64,000 nt of DNA from Coriobacteriia bacterium (GCA_034370385.1 JAXMKZ010000029.1:1-64000); one strand, 5' to 3'; shown: positions 44,813 through 57,070, numbered from the stretch's first letter. Notes: generated by a model not told the origin, from the letters alone. Translations and numbers: made by a program.

Positions 44813-44888
44813 GGGCCGTTAGCTCAGTTGGTAGAGCAGGGGACTTTTAATCCCAAGGTCGTAGGTTCGAAACCTACACGGCCCACCA
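44813..44888 (+). tRNA. tRNA-Lys (anticodon TTT)
   Basis: A full cloverleaf of 76 bases with encoded CCA. The acceptor GGGCCGT pairs with ACGGCCC; the D arm GCTCAGTTGGTAGAGC, the anticodon loop CTTTTAA (TTT) and the T arm GTAGGTTCGAAACCTAC are all present. Confidence 0.98.
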
Positions 44889-44894
44889 CATATC

Positions 44895-44970
44895 GCCCCC
44901 ATCGTCTAGTGGCCAAGGACTCCGCCCTTTCAAGGCGGCAACAGGGATTCGAATTCCCTTGGGGGCACCA
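44895..44970 (+). tRNA. tRNA-Glu (anticodon TTC), integration target
   Basis: A 76-base cloverleaf with encoded CCA. The acceptor GCCCCCA pairs with TGGGGGC; the anticodon stem-loop CCGCC-CTTTCAA-GGCGG gives TTC. Its last 26 bases plus 4 downstream recur at 51232-51261 and partly at 46881-46901, marking it as the attachment site of the islets downstream. Confidence 0.98.
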
Positions 44971-44974
44971 CAAA
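44945..44974 (+). repeat. Attachment repeat 1 (tRNA-Glu 3' end)
   Basis: A 30-bp stretch covering the T arm and acceptor end of tRNA-Glu plus CAAA. An identical copy lies at 51232-51261 and a 21-bp partial copy at 46881-46901. Copies 1 and 2 are both followed by a shared CAGGTCAGAGG, so left ends of both islets are alike. Confidence 0.9.
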
Positions 44975-45119
44975 TCCTCAGGTCAGAGGGGGTACGGCCT
45001 CCGATTTGTTGCCCGATTTGGTGCCTGATCGCACACGATGCTCCCGTTGCTCTCAGCTTGCTTCTGAGACGCAAATTCTACTTGGTTGAGCAGCGCTACG
45101 CGCCCCTGCGTGATCCGAT

Positions 45120-45171
45120 ATGGGACAAATAAAATAGCAGTTGAGTCCAAGTGCTGTACTATATGTCCCAT
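45120..45171 (+). promoter_or_regulatory. Promoter/operator of the first abiE pair
   Basis: ATGGGACA at 45120-45127 is inverted as TGTCCCAT at 45164-45171, covering the start codon. TACTAT at 45157-45162 could be a -10 element, which would make the transcript nearly leaderless. AbiEi proteins are known to autorepress through inverted repeats at their promoters; binding here is inference. Confidence 0.5.
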
Positions 45172-45784
45172 GAGAGAGCCAAGTGACAACGCGCTTGCTG
45201 TAGCCGAGGCCATCTTCGCCGCGCATGAAGGAGTCATGCGCACGGGTGAAGCGCTCGAGGCCGGCATACACCGGCGAACCCTGTACTGGATGAGGGATCA
45301 CGGGAAGCTTGAGACCCTGAGCAGGGGCGTGTTCATTCTCGCCTCGGCGCCGCTTCCTGAGAGTCCGGATGTCGCTGCGGTCATGCGCCGCAGCCCCAAA
45401 GCAGTCCTGTGCCTCGTGAGCGCTCTGGAGTATCACGGCATCGGCACGCAGATACCAAGTGCCGTGCAGATCGCACTGCCACGCAACGTGACGCCTCCCA
45501 AGTTCAGCTACCCGCGGGTGCAGGTGTTCAGCATGAGCGACGCAGCGTTTCGGGCCGGCGTGGAGGAGCACTCGATGGCGGGGGCGCAGTTTCGCGTGTA
45601 TGGGGTCGCCAAGACCGTGGCCGACTGCTTCAAGTACCGCAACAGGATCGGCTTCGACATCGCGATGGAGGCACTTCAGGAAGTCGTGAGGAAGCGGGCC
45701 GCCACGCCTTCAGAGATCATGGAATTCGCGCGTATCGACAAGGTCGAGTCCGTCATCTCTCCCTACATGGCGGCACTCCTGTGA
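45170..45784 (+). CDS. abiEi: AbiEi-type antitoxin (type IV toxin-antitoxin)
   Basis: A 204-residue antitoxin and likely autorepressor. The N-terminal winged helix (HEGVMRTGEALEAGIHRRTLYWMRDHGKL, quoted only in part by its RRTLYWM core) and the following LSRGVFILA and CLVSALEYHGI blocks are typical of the AbiEi family, as is VYGVAKTVADCFKYRNRIG. The start is ATG 45170 inside the operator repeat. The stop overlaps the abiEii GTG by 4 bp. Confidence 0.9.
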   Translation: MREPSDNALAVAEAIFAAHEGVMRTGEALEAGIHRRTLYWMRDHGKLETLSRGVFILASAPLPESPDVAAVMRRSPKAVLCLVSALEYHGIGTQIPSAVQIALPRNVTPPKFSYPRVQVFSMSDAAFRAGVEEHSMAGAQFRVYGVAKTVADCFKYRNRIGFDIAMEALQEVVRKRAATPSEIMEFARIDKVESVISPYMAALL

Positions 45785-46698
45785 CCACCGATACCCCGAC
45801 GAACCTCCCCGCATCGGTCCGTGCCCGCCTGAGGAACAAGGCCGACGAGATTGGCCTCGACTTCAACCAGGTGCTCCAGTACTACGCGATGGAGCGCTTC
45901 TTGTACCGCCTCTCCAAGACCAAGTGGGCGGATTGCTTGATCGTCAAGGGCGCGGCGATGCTTCGCGTCTGGGACGGTGCGGTGGCTCGGCCGACCAGAG
46001 ACATCGACTTTCTCGGGCGCATCGAGAACTCGCCCGAGGCCGTTGCCGCGATGGTGCGGGAGTGCCTCGCCGTCGAGTCAGCCGACGGTGTCGAGTTCTC
46101 CGCCGATGTGGCCGTCGAACCCATCACCATCGAGGATCGGTATCCAGGAGTGCGTGCGCTCGTCGAAACCAGATTGGCGGGCGCACGGATGCGTCTCCAA
46201 CTCGACATCGGCGTCGGGGACATCGCCGTACCTGAGCCCGGATGGGTGGATTACCCGACGCTGCTGGACATGGACGCGCCACGCATCCTCGCGTACCAGC
46301 CCGCGACTGCGATAGCCGAGAAGTTCGAGACCATGATCAGCAAAGGGCTCCTGAACAGCCGCATGAAGGACTACTACGACATCTGGATGCTCTCGCACTC
46401 CGTCATCTTCGACGGCGGCGAGATGGTAGACAGCATTGCGGCGACCTTCGGGCGGCGCGGTACCGATGTGCCCACTGTTCGACCGGCCGTGCTTTCCGAC
46501 GACTATGCGAAGCGTCCGGAGAGGATGACGCAGTGGGCGGCCTTCGTATCACGACTCCGAGTGTCGGGAATCGAAGCGCCCGACAGTCTCGTCGAGGTCG
46601 TCGACGACATCAACGGATTCATCATGCTGCCTGCCGCCGCAGCGGCAGCCGGACAGCCGTTCAGTCAGAAATGGGTGCCGGGCAAGAGTTGGTCGTGA
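45781..46698 (+). CDS. abiEii: AbiEii-type nucleotidyltransferase toxin
   Basis: A 305-residue toxin of the nucleotidyltransferase superfamily. VKGAAMLRVW followed by RPTRDIDFLG holds the G-x-x-x-L and metal-binding DxD-like aspartates, and AEKFETMISKG...MKDYYDIWML is the conserved helical motif. Family members inhibit growth by modifying tRNA or other targets and confer phage resistance by abortive infection; this target is unknown. Coupled translation with the antitoxin (GTGA). Confidence 0.9.
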   Translation: MTTDTPTNLPASVRARLRNKADEIGLDFNQVLQYYAMERFLYRLSKTKWADCLIVKGAAMLRVWDGAVARPTRDIDFLGRIENSPEAVAAMVRECLAVESADGVEFSADVAVEPITIEDRYPGVRALVETRLAGARMRLQLDIGVGDIAVPEPGWVDYPTLLDMDAPRILAYQPATAIAEKFETMISKGLLNSRMKDYYDIWMLSHSVIFDGGEMVDSIAATFGRRGTDVPTVRPAVLSDDYAKRPERMTQWAAFVSRLRVSGIEAPDSLVEVVDDINGFIMLPAAAAAAGQPFSQKWVPGKSWS

Positions 46699-46845
46699 CG
46701 ATCATCGTCAACGGCAGATATCTCGGACTCTGACGACGGCTCGCAGACGCTGCGCTCGGCGGTCTGTACGCCAAGCATTCCAGCGCACTCGCGGGGTTCG
46801 GAATCGTACGGGCAGCACGCCCCGGATTTGTCGCCCAAATACATG

Positions 46846-46864
46846 GTGACTATTGAATAGTCAC
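46846..46864. repeat. Right-end palindrome of islet A
   Basis: GTGACTAT and ATAGTCAC flank TGA, an 8-bp perfect inverted repeat 17 bp before attachment repeat 2. Islet B has a different inverted repeat in the same place. The interval 46699-47047 holds no gene; it contains the right end of islet A, repeat 2, the left end of islet B and the second abiE promoter. Confidence 0.7.
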
Positions 46865-46880
46865 AAGCGCAATTAGGATA

Positions 46881-46901
46881 CGAATTCCCTTGGGGGCACC
46901 A
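46881..46901 (+). repeat. Attachment repeat 2 (internal junction)
   Basis: Twenty-one bases identical to the tRNA-Glu 3' end through CCA, followed by TAAAACCGCAGGTCAGAGG, which resembles the sequence after repeat 1. It is the junction between islets A and B. Confidence 0.85.
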
Positions 46902-47007
46902 TAAAACCGCAGGTCAGAGGTTTGCGAATCCCTGTCGCGTGCTTGAAATCCAGCACCAAATCGTGCCCTCTCGAGGTCTCAACTTCCTTCTGAAAATGCC
47001 AATATAC

Positions 47008-47036
47008 TTGCGTAAAGCAGCGTTGAGCGCTACCTT
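47008..47036 (+). promoter_or_regulatory. Promoter of the second abiE operon
   Basis: TTGCGT at 47008-47013, a 17-base spacer and TACCTT at 47031-47036. The expected transcription start is only a few bases before ATG 47048. The region upstream resembles that of the first pair, in line with shared ancestry of the islet left ends. Confidence 0.5.
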
Positions 47037-47047
47037 ATGAAAGTGAA

Positions 47048-47857
47048 ATGGCGATTCAAGAAGTGACAGCCCCTGAAGACGTCTCGGCGTTCGTCGGCCA
47101 GCTTCAGGCAACGGGGACCTACACGTTCTCTCACGCGGACGCGCGAGCCGCACTCCCGATGTCCGAGATAGCGGTCGACAACGCCCTGCGCCGGCTCAAG
47201 AAGCGCGGTCGCATAGTGGCTCCGCGCCGCGGGTTCTACGTGATCGTGCCTACCGAGTACATCACGGCTGGCTCGCCACCACCTTCGTGGTTCATCGACG
47301 GACTGATGAGCTTTCTCGGCCAGCCCTACTACGTGGGCTTGCTATCCGCAGCGGCCATCCACGGCGCTTCTCATCAGCAGCCGATGACGTTTCAGGTCGT
47401 CACCGACCGTCCCACCCGCGAGGGCGTGGCCGGACGCGCGCACATCACCTTCCACATGAGTCGTCAGGTCGTGGAGACGCCCGCCACCCAGGTTCAGACG
47501 GAGACGGGGACCATGCTCGTGTCCACGCCTGAATCGACGGCATTCGATCTCGTGCGCTTCTCGGCGGCCTGCGGTGGCTGGAGCAATGTCGCCACGGTGC
47601 TGCTCGAACTCGCTGAGCGCCTAGAGCCGGAGGCCCTGTGTTTCGTTGCGCAGCTGCGCAAGACTCCCGAGATCCAGCGCCTCGGCTACCTCTTGGACCG
47701 AACGGGCCAGCCACGGCTCGCCGACCCGTTGCTCCGAGTCCTTGGCTCCAAGCGGTATCGGCCCGTTGTGCTCGCTCCCAGTGCGTCTGGCGTTGAAGCC
47801 GATGTCGTTAGCCCTTGGCGTGTGATCCCGAATCTGGAAGTGGAGATCGACCTGTGA
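47048..47857 (+). CDS. abiEi: AbiEi-type antitoxin, second copy
   Basis: A 269-residue antitoxin, longer than and distinct from the first copy. A winged-helix N-terminus (YTFSHADARAALPMSEIAVD, NALRRLKKRGRIVAPRRGFY region) leads to YYVGLLSAAAIHGASHQQP, VSTPESTAFDLVRF and a C-terminal extension ending near VEIDL. These are marks of the AbiEi_4/DUF4095-like subgroup. It overlaps the toxin gene by 4 bp. Confidence 0.9.
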   Translation: MAIQEVTAPEDVSAFVGQLQATGTYTFSHADARAALPMSEIAVDNALRRLKKRGRIVAPRRGFYVIVPTEYITAGSPPPSWFIDGLMSFLGQPYYVGLLSAAAIHGASHQQPMTFQVVTDRPTREGVAGRAHITFHMSRQVVETPATQVQTETGTMLVSTPESTAFDLVRFSAACGGWSNVATVLLELAERLEPEALCFVAQLRKTPEIQRLGYLLDRTGQPRLADPLLRVLGSKRYRPVVLAPSASGVEADVVSPWRVIPNLEVEIDL

Positions 47858-48678
47858 TTCCGCGGGCCCAAATCACGGCGTGGAGAGCTTCTGCGCCATG
47901 GCCACAAGACGAGCAGGTCGAGCAGGACCTGGTTCTGTCGAGAGCTCTCACCGCGATCTTCGCGCGGCCATCCTTGCGCCGTGCGCTCGCCTTTCGAGGC
48001 GGGACCGCACTGCACAAGCTTCACTTCGAGCCTCCGGGCCGCTACTCCGAGGATCTTGATCTCGTACAGGTCGAGGCGGGTCCGATCGGCCCTGTGCTGG
48101 CGGAGCTTCGCGAGGCGCTCGATCCTTGGTTGGGGGAGCCCGCATGGAGGCAGGGCCCCGCCAGCGCCAAACTGCTCTACCGCTTCGAGACGACCACGCT
48201 GCCGGTGCAGTTGATGCGGGTCAAGGTCGAGATCAACACCCGGGAGCACTTCAGTGTCGACGGGCTTCAGCATGTGCCGTTCGCCGTAGCCAGCCCGTGG
48301 CACTCTGCCGATGAGCTGATCACCACATTCACGCTCGAAGAGCTGCTTGCCACCAAGATGCGGGCGCTTTTCCAGCGGCGGAAGGGCCGCGACCTCTACG
48401 ACCTATGGCTCGGGCTGACCACCCTCGACCCCGACGAGGCGCGCATCATCGACTGTCTCGGCGAGTACCTTGCGCGAACGGAGAGTTCGATCTCGCGCGC
48501 CGAGTTCGAGGCGAACATGGCGGGGAAGCTGGCGTCTCCCGATTTCCGCACTGACGTGATTCCGCTGCTTCGCGACCCCGAGGGATACGACGTCGAAGTT
48601 GCGGCGTCACTCGTGCACGGCCGTCTCATCGCCCGCCTTCCCGGCGAGCCGTGGAAAGCGCTTGGTCGCGAGAAATGA
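47854..48678 (+). CDS. abiEii: AbiEii-type nucleotidyltransferase toxin, second copy
   Basis: A 274-residue toxin. FRGGTALHKLHF followed by RYSEDLDLV gives the nucleotidyltransferase active-site motif, and LEELLATKMRALFQRRKGRD with LYDLW is the conserved helix. It differs strongly from the first toxin, so this is not a recent duplication. GTG start inside the antitoxin stop (GTGA). Confidence 0.9.
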   Translation: MIPRAQITAWRASAPWPQDEQVEQDLVLSRALTAIFARPSLRRALAFRGGTALHKLHFEPPGRYSEDLDLVQVEAGPIGPVLAELREALDPWLGEPAWRQGPASAKLLYRFETTTLPVQLMRVKVEINTREHFSVDGLQHVPFAVASPWHSADELITTFTLEELLATKMRALFQRRKGRDLYDLWLGLTTLDPDEARIIDCLGEYLARTESSISRAEFEANMAGKLASPDFRTDVIPLLRDPEGYDVEVAASLVHGRLIARLPGEPWKALGREK

Positions 48679-48703
48679 CGATCGCGGCGGCGGGACTGTA
48701 CCT

Positions 48704-51124
48704 GTGAACGATCGGCTTCAGCCGGACGAACTCGAGGCGCTCCGACGGCAGAACCTCCTGCTTGCCGAAGAGAACGCGCGGCTCAAGGAGATGCTGGGGC
48801 TCGAGGCACGGGATGCCGCGACTGCAATGCAGCCGGATATCGCTCGAATCTCCGGAATCACGGGTTCGTCGTCGGCCGCCAAGATCGAGCTGTTCCAGTC
48901 TCTCTTTCGCGGGCGCGCCGATGTGTTCGCCAGGCGCTGGGAGAGCCGCTCGGGCGGGAGTGGCTACGCGCCCGCCTGTGCCAATGAGTGGCGATCGGGA
49001 CTGTGCGACAAGCCGCGCGTGAAGTGTGCCGATTGTGCCGATCGAGAGTTGGAGGCGCTCAGCGCGTCGACCATCGAAGATCATCTCACCGGGCGCAGCA
49101 CGGTTGGCATCTATGCCATGCTCGAGGACGAGACCTGCCACTTCCTCGCGATCGATTTCGACGACGAGGGCTGGCGCGGCGATGTGACCGCGCTCCGTTC
49201 GGCCGCGTCCGCCTCCGGTGTCGAATGCCATGTCGAGGTGTCGCGGTCTGGGGGTGGTGCCCACGCGTGGTTCTTCTTCGCCGAGCCGGTGCCCGCGGCG
49301 CTGGCGCGTCGTCTGGGCACAGCGCTGCTGACGCAGGCTGCGCGCGGTAGACACGCTCTGTCGCTCCGTTCATATGATCGGCTCTTCCCCAGCCAGGACA
49401 CGATGCCGCGCGGAGGATTCGGCAACCTCATCGCTTTGCCACTCCAGCATGAACCCCGATCGGCCGGACGTTCGGTCTTCGTCGACGAGCAGCTGCGGCA
49501 GTACTCTGACCAGTGGGCCTATCTGAGCTCTGTGGTGCGACTTGAACGATCCGTCGTCGATGCCGCATTGTCGCGGCTTGTCGCGGATGGAAGCCCGCTC
49601 GGTGTCCGGAGCTACCCGGCTGGCGGTGGCGGCGACACACCGTGGGCGCTGCCGGTCCCTCCACCCCGCGTGCGTCCAGAGCTGATCGGGCATGTTCCGG
49701 CGGTCGTCCGAGCCGTGCGCGCGAACCTCATCTTCGTAGAGAAGGCTGGACTTCCCGACTCGCTTCTCGACCAGATTGCCCGGCTCGCCGCCTTCGAGAA
49801 CCCTGAGTTCCACCGCGCACAGGCCATGCGCCTGCCCACGTGGGACAAGCCGCGAATCATCTCGTGCGCCCAGGAGTTTGACGCGCATCTCGCGCTGCCG
49901 AGAGGATGCCTCGATGACCTGCGAGAGGTGATCGAGGGCTACGCCTCCGAACTCGAGGTCACAGACGAGCGCACCGAAGGTTTGCTGCTGCTCGCAAGGT
50001 TCTCGGGCACCCTCCGGCCAGAACAACGGAAAGCCGTCAAGGCTGTATTGGGGCACGACGACGGTGTCTTGAGCGCGGGGACGGCCTTCGGCAAGACCGT
50101 GGTGGCCGCCAACGTGATTGCCAAGCGCGGCGTGAGCACGCTCGTTCTCGTCCATCGTCGCGGGCTCATGGAGCAGTGGTGAGAGCGGCTCTCCACATTC
50201 CTCGATGTTCCGCTGGGATCGATCGGCGTCATCGGCGGTGGCAAGCGCAAGCCGACCGGGACCATCGACATCGCTGTGCTGCAGTCGCTGGTCCGAAAGG
50301 GCTCGGTCGACCCCATCGTCGCCGAGTACGGGCAGGTCATCATCGACGAGTGCCATCACGTTTCTGCGTTCAGCTTCGAGGCCGTGCTGCGCCAGGCGCG
50401 CGCACGCTTCGTGCTCGGACTCACGGCCACGCCGATTCGCAAGGACGGCCATCATCCGATAATCACGATGCAGTGCGGGCCTGTACGGTTCAAGACCGAT
50501 CTGAAACGCCAAGCCGCAGCCCGGCCGTTCGAGCACATAGTTCGGCCGCGCGAGACTGGATTCGGTGTCGCGGCTCTGGCCGCAGACGGAATCCAAGAGG
50601 TCTATCGCCTGCTTGCGGGCGATGAGACCCGCAACGCTCTGATCGTAGAGGATGTGGTAGCCGCAGCCTCGGAGGGCCGCTCGGCGCTCGTGCTGACCGA
50701 GCGCACGGCGCACCGCGACCTGCTCGCGAGCCTGCTCGCTGAGCAGACGCCCCACGTCTTCGCGCTTTCAAGCGGCATAGGGGTGAAGAAGCGGGCCGCT
50801 CTAGCAGAGAGCATGGCGGCCGTGCCCGAAGGCGAGCCGAGCGTGCTCGTTGCGACGGGACGCCTTGTGGGTGAGGGCTTCGACGACGCGCGTCTCGACA
50901 CGCTCTTCCTGGCGATGCCGATTTCGTGGCGCGGGACGCTGCAGCAGTATGCGGGCAGGCTCCATCGCCTGCACGACGAGAAGAGCGAGGTGGTCATCTA
51001 CGACTACGTCGACCCGCTCTTGCCGGTGCTTGCGCGCATGTGGGAGAAGAGGCTTCGAGGTTATCGGGCCATGGGCTATCGCGTGGAGGCGACCGTGCCG
51101 CCGAACTCAGGGCAAGTCGGCTAG
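48704..51124 (+). pseudogene. AEP primase-SF2 helicase, interrupted by one in-frame TGA
   Basis: An 806-codon frame with a single TGA at 50180-50182. Parts in order: N-terminal coiled coil (LRRQNLLLAEENARLKEML), an archaeo-eukaryotic primase-like domain with FLAIDFDD as catalytic acidic motif and a nearby cysteine cluster (C...C..C in SGLCDKPRVKCADC), then a superfamily 2 helicase with Walker A GTAFGKT, DECHH box, LGLTATPIRKDG and the C-terminal VLVATGRLVGEGFD and QQYAGRLHR. This layout is that of the primase-helicases called TOTE conflict-system proteins. The TGA falls after LMEQW, where relatives have Arg (CGA to TGA is one change). Start GTG 48704 has only a weak ribosome site. Confidence 0.85.
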
Positions 51125-51170
51125 CCGAGAGCTCCGATTTGGTGCCCAAATACATGGTACTTGTTGGCAC

Positions 51171-51216
51171 CTATTGGGACTCACCGCAGCTCCGCTATAC
51201 CAACGAGTCCCAATAG
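51171..51216. repeat. Right-end inverted repeat of islet B
   Basis: CTATTGGGACTC at 51171-51182 is perfectly inverted at 51205-51216. It lies 16 bp before attachment repeat 3 and 24 bp after the arm-like CGATTTGGTGCCC. Likely a recombinase or directionality-factor site, or a terminator for the helicase gene. Confidence 0.6.
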
Positions 51217-51231
51217 TCACCAACACAATCA

Positions 51232-51261
51232 GGATTCGAATTCCCTTGGGGGCACCACAAA
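51232..51261 (+). repeat. Attachment repeat 3 (right boundary)
   Basis: Thirty bases identical to 44945-44974, including the four bases after the tRNA CCA. What follows is therefore the original sequence downstream of tRNA-Glu. Confidence 0.88.
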
Positions 51262-51265
51262 CGAC

Positions 51266-51297
51266 GTAGGCCCCTCTGTTCGAAACGGGGGGCCTAC
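51266..51297 (+). terminator. Displaced hairpin of the tRNA unit
   Basis: GTAGGCCCC at 51266-51274 pairs with GGGGCCTAC at 51289-51297. Because it directly follows repeat 3, it was probably the native terminator of the tRNA-Glu transcript before the islets entered. It lacks a T run. A related sequence lies at 57107-57135. In the rest of 51298-51571 I see only a weak GCCC/GGGC hairpin followed by TCTTTTT near 51374-51392 and no gene. Confidence 0.5.
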
Positions 51298-51571
51298 CTG
51301 CGTAAACAACGAATCGTCGGTGCGCCCACTGCCCGCTCCCGACCGAGCAGAATAGCCATCCAGTAGCCACGTGGCCCGCACGGGCTCTTTTTGAGCAACA
51401 GAGGCACATAGAATTCCCCGGGGATCGAACTGACGCTGGCCCCTCGCGGCTGTCGGCGGACGCAGCAAGGTCGGGGCGGATCGTGGACGACTGCCGGGCA
51501 TTCCCCAAGCCGCCCGCGAGTGGTACTCAGTGAAGATGGCGCAATGCGAAGTACCTGCCTGCCGACGAAGA

Positions 51572-52375
51572 CTAGCCCCAGCCGTCGTCCCAGCGCTCAT
51601 CAAACATCCGGTCGAAGAGCTCGTCTTCAGCGTCAATCCAATCGAGGTCGCCGGAGGCCGTCATGAGCGCCAGCTCTCGAAGCTTGGTGAACTCGGAAGT
51701 CAGCGCACGTTCATCATCAGGCCCCCGGTCGTCCAGGCAGAAATCAAAGCCATGCCACTGGCCGGTTCTCTGTGATTCTGCTTCCTTGAGGAGATGCGCG
51801 ATCTGCAGGAGGCACTCAACACGATTCGCGATCAGGCGGCGGAAGAACTCAAGCTCTGTCTTTGTCTGGAAGTAGACGTCGTGAGGCTTCTCGCTTAGAG
51901 GAAGAAGTTGGAAGCCGAACAGCTGCCCGGAAAACGCATCGGGCTCGCGCCTACGCACTTTGTTCAAATTGACCGGGGAATCCGCGATGGCCTTCATGTC
52001 GAAGCCCGAAGCCGCGGTGCCCCGTATCTTCGCAAGCAGTTGCTCGAGCGCCTCTTGCTGACTGACGAGATCACGTTTCGTCAGCTTTGGAGCGGTCGCG
52101 CCGGAGATGCGTCCCTTGGTCTCAATCAGCAGGTCGTCGATCCACCCCAACAGGAACACACGCCAGTCGTTGTTTGGACACTCAACATCTGGGTCGTTCT
52201 CTCGCAGGAGCGAAAAGGCTCGCACAATGAGCGTGTCTGCAACGATCAAGAAGTCGGAAAGGAAGTCGGCTCCCTCTTCGTTCGCGAAATGCGCACCGTA
52301 CCAAAGCTGAGTAGCGGCAACGGTCTCGAAAGAACACGAGTAGAAGCCCGCGATGCCCACTCTCGACGCTAGCAT
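51572..52375 (-). CDS. Uncharacterised accessory protein
   Basis: A 267-residue soluble protein that I cannot assign. It is mostly helical by composition, with LWYGAHFANEEGADFLSDFL near the N-terminus, NNDWRVFLLGWIDDLLIETKG in the middle and a very acidic C-terminus (DWIDAEDELFDRMFDERWDD). Base composition is less GC-rich than neighbours. It sits between the last attachment repeat and an integrase remnant, so it is probably acquired DNA, perhaps a defence gene. ATG 52375 has a GGGGGA run upstream. The 220 bp after its start hold nothing recognisable. Confidence 0.65.
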   Translation of the reverse strand: MLASRVGIAGFYSCSFETVAATQLWYGAHFANEEGADFLSDFLIVADTLIVRAFSLLRENDPDVECPNNDWRVFLLGWIDDLLIETKGRISGATAPKLTKRDLVSQQEALEQLLAKIRGTAASGFDMKAIADSPVNLNKVRRREPDAFSGQLFGFQLLPLSEKPHDVYFQTKTELEFFRRLIANRVECLLQIAHLLKEAESQRTGQWHGFDFCLDDRGPDDERALTSEFTKLRELALMTASGDLDWIDAEDELFDRMFDERWDDGWG

Positions 52376-52599
52376 TGGTCCCCCGCTCGCCGCGACAACT
52401 TTCTGTGAGGGTACTACACCACCGCACGCGGCAGCTCTGCCTCTCGAGCCGCGCGAAGCGCCCTATCGTGCGGCTATTTGGTTCAACGCGAGTGACGGAG
52501 TGTTGGGCTCGGAATCGTGGTGGATGCGAAGTCGAAAGTCCGCGGCAGCCTGCAAAGCAGGAAAGGGCGAATGTGGATGACGGCGAGGAGTGAGCCGGT

Positions 52600-52893
52600 T
52601 CATCCCTCAGACGCCCGTCTGAGCGATTCCGCAAATGCATCCGCGGCTTCCCGTTCCTGGCCAGGTAGAACGCCCGCATAGATGCGCAGGGTGGTCGCAG
52701 GGTCTGAGTGCCCCAGACGGCGCGAGACGACGTGTGGGGCGAATCCCTGCCGCAGCAGCATCGTGGCGTGTCCGTGCCTGAGGTCATGGAAGCGAACTCC
52801 CGTGATGCCGATCCCCTCGGCTAGGGTTGCTGTAGGCGCATCAATCTCGTCGATGTCCAAAGGCCCATTCGGGCAGGCGGTGCCGGACCGACG
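52600..52893 (-). pseudogene. Tyrosine recombinase remnant (C-terminal catalytic end)
   Basis: About 95 codons matching the end of phage-type integrases: FHDLRHGHATMLLRQG carries the H-x-x-R box, RRLGHSDPATTLRIYAG the second His and the nucleophilic Tyr. Reading upstream, the frame continues through PNGPLDIDEID to a TAG near 52893, so the N-terminal 250 or more residues are gone. It may be the relic of the enzyme that inserted DNA at tRNA-Glu. Confidence 0.85.
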
Positions 52894-52931
52894 CTAACCC
52901 CTGCTGTGGCGTTCGGAGCACGGGCTGGAGG

Positions 52932-55900
52932 CTAATGACACTCGGTCGAGGCGGTACCGCAGCTCGCCTTGCTGTAGTTGCCGCTTGCGGGGTGCGCGTA
53001 GCTCGTGATGCCGTAGGTCGCGCTTGCTTGCGAATAGGGGGTCGCCTCCGTGGAGTAGACGACCATGTGGGCGCGGTTGAAGCCGTGCGGAATCTGGCTG
53101 TGACAGTAGACGCAAGGGGTGTAGCGGTGTCGCAGACCTCCCGCGCCCGTCGTCGAGAAGTGGAGATTCGGATCCGCTCCTCCCGGCTTGGCGAAACCGG
53201 TCGTGCTCAGGTCGTGGCACATCCCGCAGAGCGATGTCGTGTAGTTGTCCGGAGTGACCGTTGCGCTCCACGAGCCCTTCAGGATGAACGGGTATGCCGA
53301 GCCGTGCGGCCCCTTGGGGGCACCGCCGGTGAGGTTCGTGGTGTGACAGTCGGAGCACGTCATTCGCGACGTGGGGGTCCAGCCGTTGAGGTAGCCGCCG
53401 GCCGAGCTGGCCTTGCTCGTACCGACCACCGCGTGGTAGGAGGCGTTGTTGGGGTTGAACTCCCGTGCGGCATCCGTGGCGCCGTACCCACCGGACCCGC
53501 CCGTCGTAGGGAGCGTGGTGTAACCGCTGTGGCACTTGAAGCAGACATAGGCCTCGTAGTCGGTCGACTGGCCGTCGAACTTCTCAGCCACGTAGCCTGT
53601 GGGGGTCGTCCATGCGGCTGGCCACGACGAAGGTCGCACGCCGGTGCTGCCCCAGAAGACCGCCCCGGCGGTGCTCTCTCCGGGCACATGGTTGCCGCGC
53701 CGGGTCGTGTGCACCTCGTGGCAGTCGACGCACTCGACGTGCCGGTTGCCCACGCCGAAGGCGCCCGCGGTCTCCACGTCGGAGTGGCGGTTGCTGTACG
53801 TGCCTATGGGATGCACGCCGGTCTTGAGGTCGAACACACGGTTCTCGTGAACGTGCGTATGCCCGACCGATCCCCATGTGCCTGACCCAGATACGACATC
53901 GGTGTACCCATCCGCGTCGATATCGGCCGCGCGCACTCCGTATACCGTGCCACCCGGAGAAGAAATCGCATGGCCTGCCCACACCAAGCCGTCGCCGGAT
54001 GCGTTCTCGTTCCAGCTGACTTGCGACCCTGAGGCGTAGATGACATCCAGGTCGCCATCGTCGTCGATATCGGCGACAGCCGCCGAGTTGTTCTGGCCGG
54101 GGCCCCACCCCACCGTCTGCGTCGTCCAGGTGCTACCGTCACCGGCTGTGTTGTCGTACCAGTAGATCGGGTAGCCTTGGGGCGAGGTCCCCTTCCAACC
54201 CCCTCCGACCACGATATCGTTGTCGCCGCTACCGTTGATGTCCCCAATGGCCACGGACCACAGGCTGATCTGCGGATAGGCGACCGTCACGGTCGACCAG
54301 CCGCCTCCACCGATCGCGGGGTTGCTGTGCCAGCGCACCCGCTGATCGTCTCCTACCGACGCGATGTCTATGTCGATGTCCCCGTCGATCGCGCCCACCG
54401 CAAGACTTCGGATGGCGCCTCCGGCCGAGTGCACCAGGGTGTGGTTCCACGCTGCGCCGTTTCCGGCGTTGCTGTGCACGAGGATATTGCCGTCATTCCG
54501 TCCCGAGACGATGTCAAGGTCCCCGTCGCGATCGAAGTCGCTCACGGCGACGCTGTGGGCCGAAACGCCTGAGCCGGACGTTATGACAACATTCGACGAC
54601 CATGCGCTGCCGTCGCCAGCCGTGTTGTCCAACCACAGCACGCTGGCCCCAGAGCCGCTCACGCCGAGAACTATGTCCCGGTCGCCGTCGTTGTCGATGT
54701 CACCGATTGCGACCGAGGTGATCTGAAGGGTGCTTGTGAACGCGGTGACCGTGGTCCACACAGAGCCGCTTGCGGAGTTCTTATAGACGTAGACCTCGCC
54801 AGTCCTCGACCCGGACACGATGTCGAGATCCCCGTCGTTGTCGATATCCGAAACTGCGACCGAGTATGTGATGTCCGTGTCGCCGCCGACCCGGCGACTG
54901 TACCAGTCCGGCTGGGTGCCCGGCACCTGATTCGTGACGGTCTGGATGTCAGGCATGTATGCGTGGCATCCCGTGTCGCACGAGGTCCACGAGCTCCGGG
55001 AGCCGTGGCACCCGAAGCACAGACGCTCTTCGCGGCTGATCGCGCTGTTCTGGCGCGACACGGGCGGGAAGTGCCCACCTGAGAACGCCGTAAGCCGCGC
55101 GTTGTCAGAGCCGTGCGGATCGTGGCAGTTGTCGCAGCCGACACTCGTGTCGCCTGCACCCGAGACGGCGTAGTGGCCGCCGGTCGTCATCGGGGACTTG
55201 TCCCAGCCCGGGAAGAAGGTGGCGGTAACCGACGGGAAAATCACGGTGTACGGCACAACGGTCGTGGTGTTCAGTGTCTTGGACGGAGGACTGCCGTCGT
55301 GGCACCGCAAACAGAACTGCCCGACGCTAGCCGGCGTGTTAACGGTATTGTCCGGATCGCTCATGCGCCCAAGCGACCACTCGGCGGTGCCCGTCGTGAC
55401 GGTGTGTGAGTTGTGGCAGCTCGCACAGTACAGCGCGGCTCCTGTCGTGCCGGAGATGTCGTGCGAGCTCGCGCGGGCGAATTCGCGCTCGATGAAGCGC
55501 CCGTTCCACGTGTTCGCATCTCCAGACGAGCCGTGGCATCGGTAGCACAGTTCCGCGTCCTGGGCGCCGGCTCCGAGGGCGTAGGCATTCAGGTAGTCGG
55601 CCCCTTTCGCGCCGTGACGCTGGTGGCACACAAGGCATTGGATGCCGCTGCCACTGGACGGGGTGATCTGGCACGTGGCGTCGACCGTCGCCGATGGCGT
55701 CCACGCCAAGTCGGCATGGGGGCCGGTGTAGATGGTCTGGTGGTCGCCCCCGGACTTGGAGTAGTAGAGCGAATCGGAGATGTAGGCGTTGCGGAACGAT
55801 CCATGACACCCGAAACAGAAGGGATTCTTGGCTCCACCGGCCGCGGCGGTCGGATATGTCTTCGAGCCATCGGACTGCCAGTTGAAGAGGAGCTTGGGGT

Positions 55901-56957
55901 TCACGGACGGGTCGTTGTGGACCTCGTGACAGCTGCCGCAGTCGAGCGTCTCCTCGACGAAGGGGTGCCACGAGTCGTCGAACACGTCCGGCGCCTGGTC
56001 GTCGCAGGCGATGAACTCAGCTTGGACGTTCGAACCGTGGGCGCCGGCCGGAGGGCTCGATGCACTCGCGTTCCCGTGGCAATAGAAGCACTCATCGAAC
56101 CTCGCGCGTGCCAGCGCGGGACTCGCCATGGCATCGTGGGAGCTGTGGCACGCCTTGCATGAGCGAGAGCCCTCCGTGTACCGCCCGTGCGGCATCGAAG
56201 TGTAGCCTACGGCGTACGTTGAGAAGTGGTCGAGCTGGGCCATTGCAACGTCGCGCTCTGTGTCGAGGGTCACGTCGACGCCGAGGCGGTCCCATCTTGA
56301 GCCGGTTTCATTCCTCAGGTGGAGGCGCGCGGTTCGCGCAAGCCAGTTCTCTTCGAACAGCTCCCCGCCGTTGACGCGGTAGGCGATCTCCAGCTCGACG
56401 GGCTTCCGGAACACGGTTCCGTCAGGTCCGAAGTCGAGGGCGGGCGTCATGAAAGCCGTCGAGGAGCAGCCTGTCGACCCCGCTACACGCTCCTCGATCG
56501 TGAGGCGTGTGGCGCTCGCGAGTGCACGTGCAGGCACGCGCAGGAGCACCTCACCGTTCGCCGCGATGATCTCGGTGGGCGAGGACGCTGAGGCCAGCTT
56601 CGTGATCCAGATGTCGTCGTTTCTGACCACCGGGCCCCGGTCGCCGACCAATACGCCTGAAGCTGCGGCGACTCGGTAGCGGTAGACCCCAAGGGCCGTC
56701 TCTGGCACTGGGTCGACGTAGTGCGTCGAGGACGTCACGGCCGCCTTGCGAAACGCCTTCTCGCCCGGTCCGGCACGGTACACGACGTAGCGGGAAGCCC
56801 CTGAGACAGCGCACCACTCGAGACGATTCTCCAAGTGGCCGGCGGTCGCGGAAACCAAGTCAGGTGCGGGCGGACCTCCCAAGACCATCAGAACCACTGC
56901 GCACGAGGCGGAAGCGCACGCGAGCACCCAAGCCAGCGCGCGCTTCAACGATGACAC
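52932..56957 (-). CDS. Giant secreted multiheme cytochrome with FG-GAP propeller
   Basis: A 1341-residue exported protein. Signal or anchor helix at residues 5-28; a fibronectin-like and ZU5-like beta region to about 255; first cytochrome block (about 260-680) with CKACH, CFYCH, CGSCH, CFGCH, CLVCH, CYRCH, CASCH, CLRCH, CDNCH, CFGCH and the spaced CDTGCH; seven FG-GAP/VCBS repeats (such as DIDNDGDLDIVSG) at about 700-1030; second block with CVDCH, CFKCH, CSDCH, CGMCH and CVYCH; final residues TECH. That gives 15 canonical sites plus one or two spaced ones. The seven repeats fit a closed seven-blade calcium-binding propeller. GTG 56957 has GGGGGAG upstream. Likely an extracellular electron conduit or adhesin. 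Confidence 0.9.
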   Translation of the reverse strand: MSSLKRALAWVLACASASCAVVLMVLGGPPAPDLVSATAGHLENRLEWCAVSGASRYVVYRAGPGEKAFRKAAVTSSTHYVDPVPETALGVYRYRVAAASGVLVGDRGPVVRNDDIWITKLASASSPTEIIAANGEVLLRVPARALASATRLTIEERVAGSTGCSSTAFMTPALDFGPDGTVFRKPVELEIAYRVNGGELFEENWLARTARLHLRNETGSRWDRLGVDVTLDTERDVAMAQLDHFSTYAVGYTSMPHGRYTEGSRSCKACHSSHDAMASPALARARFDECFYCHGNASASSPPAGAHGSNVQAEFIACDDQAPDVFDDSWHPFVEETLDCGSCHEVHNDPSVNPKLLFNWQSDGSKTYPTAAAGGAKNPFCFGCHGSFRNAYISDSLYYSKSGGDHQTIYTGPHADLAWTPSATVDATCQITPSSGSGIQCLVCHQRHGAKGADYLNAYALGAGAQDAELCYRCHGSSGDANTWNGRFIEREFARASSHDISGTTGAALYCASCHNSHTVTTGTAEWSLGRMSDPDNTVNTPASVGQFCLRCHDGSPPSKTLNTTTVVPYTVIFPSVTATFFPGWDKSPMTTGGHYAVSGAGDTSVGCDNCHDPHGSDNARLTAFSGGHFPPVSRQNSAISREERLCFGCHGSRSSWTSCDTGCHAYMPDIQTVTNQVPGTQPDWYSRRVGGDTDITYSVAVSDIDNDGDLDIVSGSRTGEVYVYKNSASGSVWTTVTAFTSTLQITSVAIGDIDNDGDRDIVLGVSGSGASVLWLDNTAGDGSAWSSNVVITSGSGVSAHSVAVSDFDRDGDLDIVSGRNDGNILVHSNAGNGAAWNHTLVHSAGGAIRSLAVGAIDGDIDIDIASVGDDQRVRWHSNPAIGGGGWSTVTVAYPQISLWSVAIGDINGSGDNDIVVGGGWKGTSPQGYPIYWYDNTAGDGSTWTTQTVGWGPGQNNSAAVADIDDDGDLDVIYASGSQVSWNENASGDGLVWAGHAISSPGGTVYGVRAADIDADGYTDVVSGSGTWGSVGHTHVHENRVFDLKTGVHPIGTYSNRHSDVETAGAFGVGNRHVECVDCHEVHTTRRGNHVPGESTAGAVFWGSTGVRPSSWPAAWTTPTGYVAEKFDGQSTDYEAYVCFKCHSGYTTLPTTGGSGGYGATDAAREFNPNNASYHAVVGTSKASSAGGYLNGWTPTSRMTCSDCHTTNLTGGAPKGPHGSAYPFILKGSWSATVTPDNYTTSLCGMCHDLSTTGFAKPGGADPNLHFSTTGAGGLRHRYTPCVYCHSQIPHGFNRAHMVVYSTEATPYSQASATYGITSYAHPASGNYSKASCGTASTECH

Positions 56958-57070
56958 TCGGTGCTCCCCCTTGCTTGACAATGGCCCTCCCCGGCTCGCG
57001 GCGAATTATCCCATGGTTCCGCCGTTTACTGGTGCTCATGTGGGTTCAGGGACCTTAATGGGGCCACGTA

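Follow-up and report, generated by a model that had tools for sequence, protein, structure and literature searches.

Within the window (the whole 64,000-nt stretch that was analyzed, from a 2.69-Mb genome in 65 contigs designated G000), a tRNA-Lys/tRNA-Glu pair at 44813-44970 is followed by two islets of 1.93 kb (islet 1) and 4.36 kb (islet 2). The tRNA-Glu gene (ttc; 44895-44970, called by ARAGORN and Rfam and, like all features given here unless stated, on the plus strand) is the integration target, attB. A 30-bp repeat of its 3' end, GGATTCGAATTCCCTTGGGGGCACCACAAA, forms the left outer attachment copy at 44945-44974 and the right outer copy at 51232-51261, 3' of which a presumed native terminator lies at about 51268-51300; the middle copy consists of a 21-bp core (46881-46901) with a mutated TACG, not TTCG, upstream. 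No Rfam RNAs besides the two tRNAs were found at the islet ends.

The left end of islet 1 (44979-45025) comprises CAGGTCAGAGGGGGTACGGCCTC and two direct arm motifs and is of the type seen on the integrase-bearing ICEs of G014, G018, G022, and G027 described below (ICE type). Its right end (46824-46878) has one arm motif, GCCCAAATACATGGT, and a collapsed repeat region that, on inspection against a 90-sequence consensus, is ∼60 bp shorter than in relatives. Islet 2 has a truncated left end of another type, S1 (46902-46966, with an inverted arm motif at 46952-46963), and a right end (51135-51231) with one arm motif, GCCCAAATACATGGT, and inverted 10-bp-phased repeats at 51162-51182 and 51205-51225, whose collapsed counterpart in islet 1 lies at ∼46847-46865. 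The two islets share CAGGTCAGAGG on the left (44979-44989 and 46910-46920) and GCCCAAATACATGGT on the right (46833-46847 and 51144-51158), the longer right-end form TTTGNNGCCCAAATACATGGT occurring exactly twice in the window and never in 100 shuffles. The arm motif is found at 45002, 45014, 46952 (on the reverse strand), and 51135, and a degenerate extra copy is at 46824. The 12-mer alone is weak in the window (10 matches at ≤2 mismatches compared to 5.65 expected), and its significance comes only from where it is fixed in relatives. The attachment copies, the shared end sequences, the arm-like motifs, and the inverted repeats before the right attachment copies had all been described in an initial annotation of this DNA, and all are present.

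That annotation was also right in assigning a distinct abiEi/abiEii pair and no integrase to each islet; we found no recombinase gene in either, and the pairs were recognized by Pfam and PADLOC. In islet 1, an AbiEi_4 antitoxin gene (45170-45784; Pfam 3.6e-9, PADLOC 1.8e-67) precedes an abiEii nucleotidyltransferase toxin gene (45781-46698; Pfam 1.8e-38), and in islet 2 an AbiEi_1 antitoxin gene (47048-47857; Pfam 7.5e-36) precedes an abiEii toxin gene (47854-48678; Pfam 1.8e-36). Both pairs (45170-46698 and 47048-48678) thus have the layout of an AbiE type IV toxin-antitoxin system, abiEi then abiEii in overlapping genes, and by gene order and domains they are predicted antitoxin/toxin pairs. 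Islet 2 further carries a TOTE-type primase-helicase gene (48704-51124; AEP-TOTE PF22548, 3.3e-95), in which an archaeo-eukaryotic primase is fused to a ResIII/DEAD helicase as in the TOTE conflict system; a TGA at 50180-50182 breaks its reading frame, and a relative on contig JARGFT010000031.1 is intact (807 aa). This gene had been overlooked in the initial annotation, as had an integrase C-terminal fragment (52600-52860, minus strand) lying 1.3 kb beyond the array. The fragment is unrelated, and we rejected it as the cognate integrase since it shares only 39% identity over 56 aa with the ICE integrase described below.

The JARGFT010000031.1 islet that holds the intact gene stands directly behind tRNA-Glu and is 93% identical to islet 2 over the full length, and compared to it islet 2 has lost ∼180 bp of the left end, one right arm, and some of the repeats. 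With the right end of islet 1 collapsed and its core mutated as well, the window islets look like old, decayed members of a family.

Distribution at tRNA-Glu

We examined 69 genomes of the order Anaerosomatales, a poorly known, deep-subsurface group, in which nearly all of the relatives compared are MAGs or anonymous genomes. The ∼130-bp right end was present in 31 of these genomes (of 69), a single genome having as many as 11 matches, and arrays held up to seven islets of 1.4 to 9.7 kb each. These data support the proposal of a family of small recombinase-less islets stacked at one tRNA gene. A search of genomes for the same ends with other cargo, which had been set as a test of that proposal, indeed recovered the same ends around different cargo in relatives. 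The tRNA-Glu 3' 23-mer is found in tandem in many genomes of the order; G019 (99% complete) has eight copies across 38 kb of a single contig, and G022 has seven in 28 kb, with the tRNA copy 47 kb further upstream. Array counts are lower bounds because contigs often break at repeats.

Among 108 right ends, all those with an intact boundary adjoin the tRNA-Glu core and none had another integration target, while 18 were truncated, diverged, IS-interrupted, or chance matches. The tRNA-Glu gene is empty in seven relatives (G008, G009, G013, G031, G050, G051, and G053), where it runs straight into other chromosomal DNA, mostly a terminator. No integrase (PF00589) was found within array islets bearing these ends, nor was any mobilization gene among the 25 commonest cargo families listed. 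A phage origin was rejected, as the sole match to a viral contig (L012) has neither the attachment core nor flanking repeats and is a chance match. In G044, tRNA-Glu is occupied by a different element with its own integrase and other ends, and one might suppose from this that the islets, too, are a chance collection of unrelated insertions made by different tRNA-Glu integrases. Near-identical ∼130-bp right ends and fixed arms around unrelated cargo refute this for the canonical islets, and we give it practically no credence.

Anatomy of the ends

Most positions of the ∼130-bp right end are near-invariant in an alignment of 90 distinct sequences, which run in the order of two tandem copies of GATTTGnnGCCC (the arm motif), AAATACATGG, phased repeats, CACAAGCACAATCAGGA, and the core TTCGAATTCCCTTGGGGGCACCA. 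The core contains the palindromic T-loop GGGATTCGAATTCCC, and the tRNA T-loop is a common target of tyrosine integrases. The repeats are TTGGTACTC-type units, ∼10-bp-phased and in both orientations. An inverted repeat of this kind, long and imperfect, precedes every attachment copy; together with the arrangement of a cassette array behind one primary site, it recalls integrons, and the right end might be recombined as a folded single strand in the manner of attC. RNAalifold, applied to the 90 right ends, revealed no conserved hairpin and no compensatory change, and variants alter only one side of the repeats; protein bound along one face of the DNA is therefore more likely than a folded strand. 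As, in addition, these ends are linked to a phage-type integrase encoded by an ICE and have the T-loop of a tRNA for a core, we regard attC-like recombination as very improbable.

All left ends start near CGCAGGTCAGAGG and fall into ICE type (type I, 13), S1 (36), and S2 (37), so that S1 and S2 account for 73 of the 86 classed. The left arms (GATTTGnnGCCC) of type I are fixed at +57 and +69, those of the S types are found inverted at +72 and direct at about +205 to +225, and the right arms lie at -152 and -140 counted from the core end; between islet ends the motif is nearly absent. At such fixed distances from the core, the motif is placed as arm-type integrase sites would be, and we treat it as a putative site of this kind. 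In 72 of 76 right ends the nn dinucleotide is the same in both arms (29 expected; maximum 45 in 10,000 shuffles), perhaps as a result of slippage between the tandem 12-mers. Within an islet, the dinucleotides of left and right arms also match (19 of 32 compared to a shuffle mean of 12.8, P = 0.017; for inverted left arms against right arms, 11 of 20 compared to 5.9 expected), a correspondence so weak that we make no claim of it.

Identical kinds of cargo were found with different left-end types. Islets i29 (S1) and i56 (S2) match poorly up to the arm and are near-identical from GCCCAAATTGAG on, and the boundary between i21 and i39 likewise falls at the arm; both pairs require that one or more exchanges took place there. 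Rather than being remnants, S1 and S2 islets might form an independent cassette system, its standard pair of attP half-modules capturing cargo at GATTTGnnGCCC arm boundaries, as near-identical cargo joined precisely at the arm to different left modules and the matched nn in tandem arms would suggest, and its AbiE-type modules holding cassettes against excision. We consider this unlikely. If it were true, tRNA-Glu would be an integron-like adaptive platform across the whole order with no resident recombinase.

A candidate helper

In eight genomes (G014, G018, G021, G022, G025, G027, G066, and G068), the gene for a tyrosine integrase of 431 aa extends into the core next to tRNA-Glu; these integrases are at least 89% identical throughout, and in G068 the frame is broken by one TGA. 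Four of the elements were read over their full length, and in each the integrase opens an element of 45 to 53 kb that ends in the right end of the islet family. On the G022 element are genes for the integrase, an HTH_17 excisionase candidate, a MobL relaxase, ParA, TraG, TrbL, and NlpC/P60, and its backbone is recognizable in G014 and G027; because of this combination of integrase, relaxase, and TraG/TrbL backbone, we classify the element as an ICE. Islets stand behind it in G014, G018, G022, and G027. Having the same right end, the ICE is the likely helper of the islets, which share an end with it at the same site and so probably travel on its integrase.

A physical link to an integrase was seen for the ICE-type left end alone, and since the left-arm layout of S1 and S2 differs, a different integrase could serve them. 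Nine of the 13 type I left ends stand immediately behind the tRNA gene, as do 8 of the 73 S-type left ends, with a Fisher P value (2.5e-5) that is indicative only because the sequences are non-independent. The ICE integrase is absent (E≤1e-20) from G000 and from array genomes such as G003, G012, and G020, and in G016, G019, and G036 nothing closer than distant relatives of it was found; altogether, G000 and 22 other genomes with the right end are without it. At its N-terminus there was no Pfam match to an arm-binding domain, and its relatives on plasmids and phages all had <60% identity. The window islets look decayed and G000 has no copy of the candidate integrase, so they are probably immobile at present. 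The arrangement of genes, with a candidate helper ICE that shares the right end, agrees with the initial proposal that the islets are mobilized in trans, although the integrase might equally act in cis.

Probable movement between hosts

Hosts that are only distantly related share complete islets, which stand at differing array positions, and homologous islets are present in many genera. Such islets are 87.8-92.7% identical, while their chromosomal flanks are 72.6-77.7% identical or unalignable. A 2.5-kb nucleotidyltransferase islet, for example, is first in the array of G041 and third in that of G036, while G003, G026, and G052 have it at other positions.

Junctions have up to ∼350 bp in common, a length over which homologous recombination could rearrange the arrays, and it could be argued that this process alone operates today and that site-specific recombination is long dead. 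The absence of the integrase in many genomes would agree with this, as would the greater similarity of right ends within than between genomes (0.916 vs 0.889; 0.827 vs 0.784; label-shuffle P = 0.002). However, arm spacing and core are near-invariant despite unrelated cargo, ICEs with intact integrases are still at the tRNA-Glu site, and in G004 and G017 S-type islets are the sole or first islet directly behind tRNA-Glu. Homologous recombination as the only force is, in our judgment, decidedly unlikely.

Cargo

In 59 islets, for which the median length was 3.5 kb with 3.6 called genes, an AbiE/nucleotidyltransferase-type module was the commonest cargo (25 of 59), and 34 of 59 had either this or Fic. 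(Genes of relatives were called with a home-made codon model; cargo domains were scanned on representatives, and group scans cover the 25 commonest families listed.) Other cargo includes heavy-metal ATPases, ABC transporters, thiamine genes, aldehyde oxidoreductase, NgoMIV-type restriction with methylase, and SduA, and S elements of 29.6 to 46.5 kb contain metabolic gene clusters, among whose translations we recognized no conjugation proteins. With cargo so mixed, the term "defence islets" used in the initial annotation is too narrow for the class; defence is one theme among the cargo, not the rule. In 16 of 59 cases the islet is small and contains little beyond an AbiE-type or Fic-type module. 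AbiE stabilizes ICESsuHN105 in Streptococcus suis (PMC11062541), and HipAB stabilizes a composite island (PMC8978831); by analogy, stabilization may be the likeliest role of these 16 islets, and AbiE-type modules would presumably stabilize islets in general.

Discussion

The explanation that we consider probable is that the islets are non-autonomous, site-specific elements moved by a tRNA-Glu tyrosine integrase, that of the ICE being the best candidate. An intact member would consist of half an attachment region at each end and arbitrary cargo, with no recombinase. Upon formation of a circle, the ends would be joined into a complete attP of ∼360 bp, in the order of two direct arm motifs, 10-bp-phased repeats, the tRNA-Glu T-loop core, and left arms, and the integrase would insert the circle at tRNA-Glu or at any resident attachment copy; insertion at any copy would in turn lead to a tandem pile-up of elements. 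Movement could take place in cis, the ICE excising and conjugating together with the islets behind it, or in trans, the ICE integrase acting on islets separately. We infer both the formation of circles and the action of the ICE integrase on S-type ends.

CIMEs are decayed ICEs or IMEs that keep their attachment sites and for which accretion with an ICE is the sole means of movement (PMC5704250, PMC7563491). The islets resemble them in having no recombination or transfer genes, in their attachment-site flanks, in their tandem position with an ICE, and in their mixed adaptive cargo; attL and attR are retained, if in degenerate form in the window. They differ in that the left ends of most islets are foreign to the ICE, in being order-wide, up to seven in tandem, and often in ICE-free arrays, and in having AbiE-type modules as their most frequent cargo. 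Judged from sequence, the islets would be closest to CIMEs, as a variant of them. That they are instead classical CIMEs, each descended from an ICE in which deletions removed the integrase and the transfer genes and spared attL and attR, seems to us possible yet doubtful. Such a derivation would suit islet 1, whose left end is ICE-type, and a few others (7.1 kb in G012 and 6.8 kb in G019), and Streptococcus has tandem CIMEs at one gene, 1.2 to 13 kb long, with metal and metabolic cargo (PMC7563491, PMC5704250). It suits less well islet 2, whose left end is S1, and the S1/S2 ends generally, none of which was seen on an integrase-bearing element; because these left ends are their own, most islets are probably not simple ICE remnants. 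Nor would independent decay yield homologous islets in many genera, and S elements with metabolic clusters and no recognized conjugation genes also speak against this derivation.

To islets that would be moved by an integrase they do not encode, other systems offer partial parallels. In Dehalococcoides, tandem islands occur at ssrA, about half of them without an integration module (PMC3146451); shared features are the tandem order, direct repeats of an RNA-gene 3' end, and a conserved motif upstream of each. The Dehalococcoides islands use a serine recombinase, DsiB, in cis at ssrA, whereas here a tyrosine integrase on an ICE is implicated at tRNA-Glu, and no S islet has any integration gene. 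Like Salmonella genomic island 1 and IMEs (PMC2297512, PMC5704250), the islets are site-specific, can be tandem, and would need a conjugative helper, but IMEs and MGIs encode their own integrase. Unlike with phage satellites (PICI), the helper with the shared right end would be an ICE (relaxase, TraG, and TrbL). The AbiE of ICESsuHN105 lies on a complete streptococcal ICE (PMC11062541), and that of the present islets, predicted from the genes, on integrase-less elements.

An array of small cassettes is also what integrons have, and integron cassette arrays are rich in toxin-antitoxin genes. Unlike integrons, the islets have no attC-like fold, no IntI-linked platform was seen, and their ends are whole and attP-like.

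We found no earlier description of this islet family in the literature searched, and a paper on a cultivated lineage of Anaerosomatales mentions no integrases, genomic islands, or mobile elements (PMC9686372). A whole subsurface order appears to stack small sets of genes, interchangeable with one another, behind a single tRNA gene while not keeping the enzyme that would move them, and it may offer a natural system for the spread of integrase-less elements by conjugative helpers. It also bears on why toxin-antitoxin genes are common there and on how cargo enters between fixed ends. The right end together with the tRNA-Glu core provides a search pattern by which some of the accessory genes of Anaerosomatales can be delimited. 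When 84,980 species were scanned by pattern, 70 stretches matched, every one of them in assemblies of this kind; the matching contigs were named Coriobacteriia or Anaerosomatales, some bore generic actinobacterial names, and one was evidently a mislabelled record.

The variable dinucleotide of the putative integrase arm motif, GATTTGnnGCCC, agreed between the paired right arms, which lie in tandem, for 72 of the 76 right ends from islets in relatives, against 29 expected. In two pairs of loci (L030 and L124; L024 and L039) the same cargo is found with differing left-end modules, and in each pair the break falls exactly at the arm motif.

Much larger elements with S-type left ends lie between the same repeats in G012:C36 (39.7 kb), G027:C1 (29.6 kb), and G052:C38 (46.5 kb). 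Their cargo comprises gene clusters for metabolism, copper transport, and radical-SAM proteins; no conjugation genes were recognised from the translations of these three elements. In two arrays, L027 (G020) and L042 (G016), internal attachment copies are also trailed by terminator-like sequences of the kind normally found behind tRNA-Glu, which suggests that flanking chromosomal DNA was captured there as a cassette.

Within islet 2 of the window, the TOTE primase-helicase gene (48704-51124) is interrupted by an in-frame TGA at 50180-50182, and locus L106 carries an unbroken relative. A C-terminal tyrosine integrase fragment (52600-52860, minus strand; PF00589, 1.1e-10) lies 1.3 kb beyond the array and shares only 39% identity over 56 aa with the ICE integrase; it is a leftover of another element. 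In G051, which is of the same family and has an empty tRNA-Glu, the counterpart of window ∼55.7-59.8 kb begins ∼0.5 kb past the tRNA gene, so that window 51261-55700 lacks an evident equivalent in that genome; this stretch includes both the fragment of the integrase and the greater part of a CXXCH/FG-GAP cytochrome gene (52932-56981).

A second element type uses the tRNA-Glu target: the 5.3 kb element of L043 (G044:C88) encodes its own 435-aa integrase and has different ends. At L111, L119, and L170, apparently one and the same insertion sequence (GAATCGCCCCGGGTTT... end) splits the right ends.
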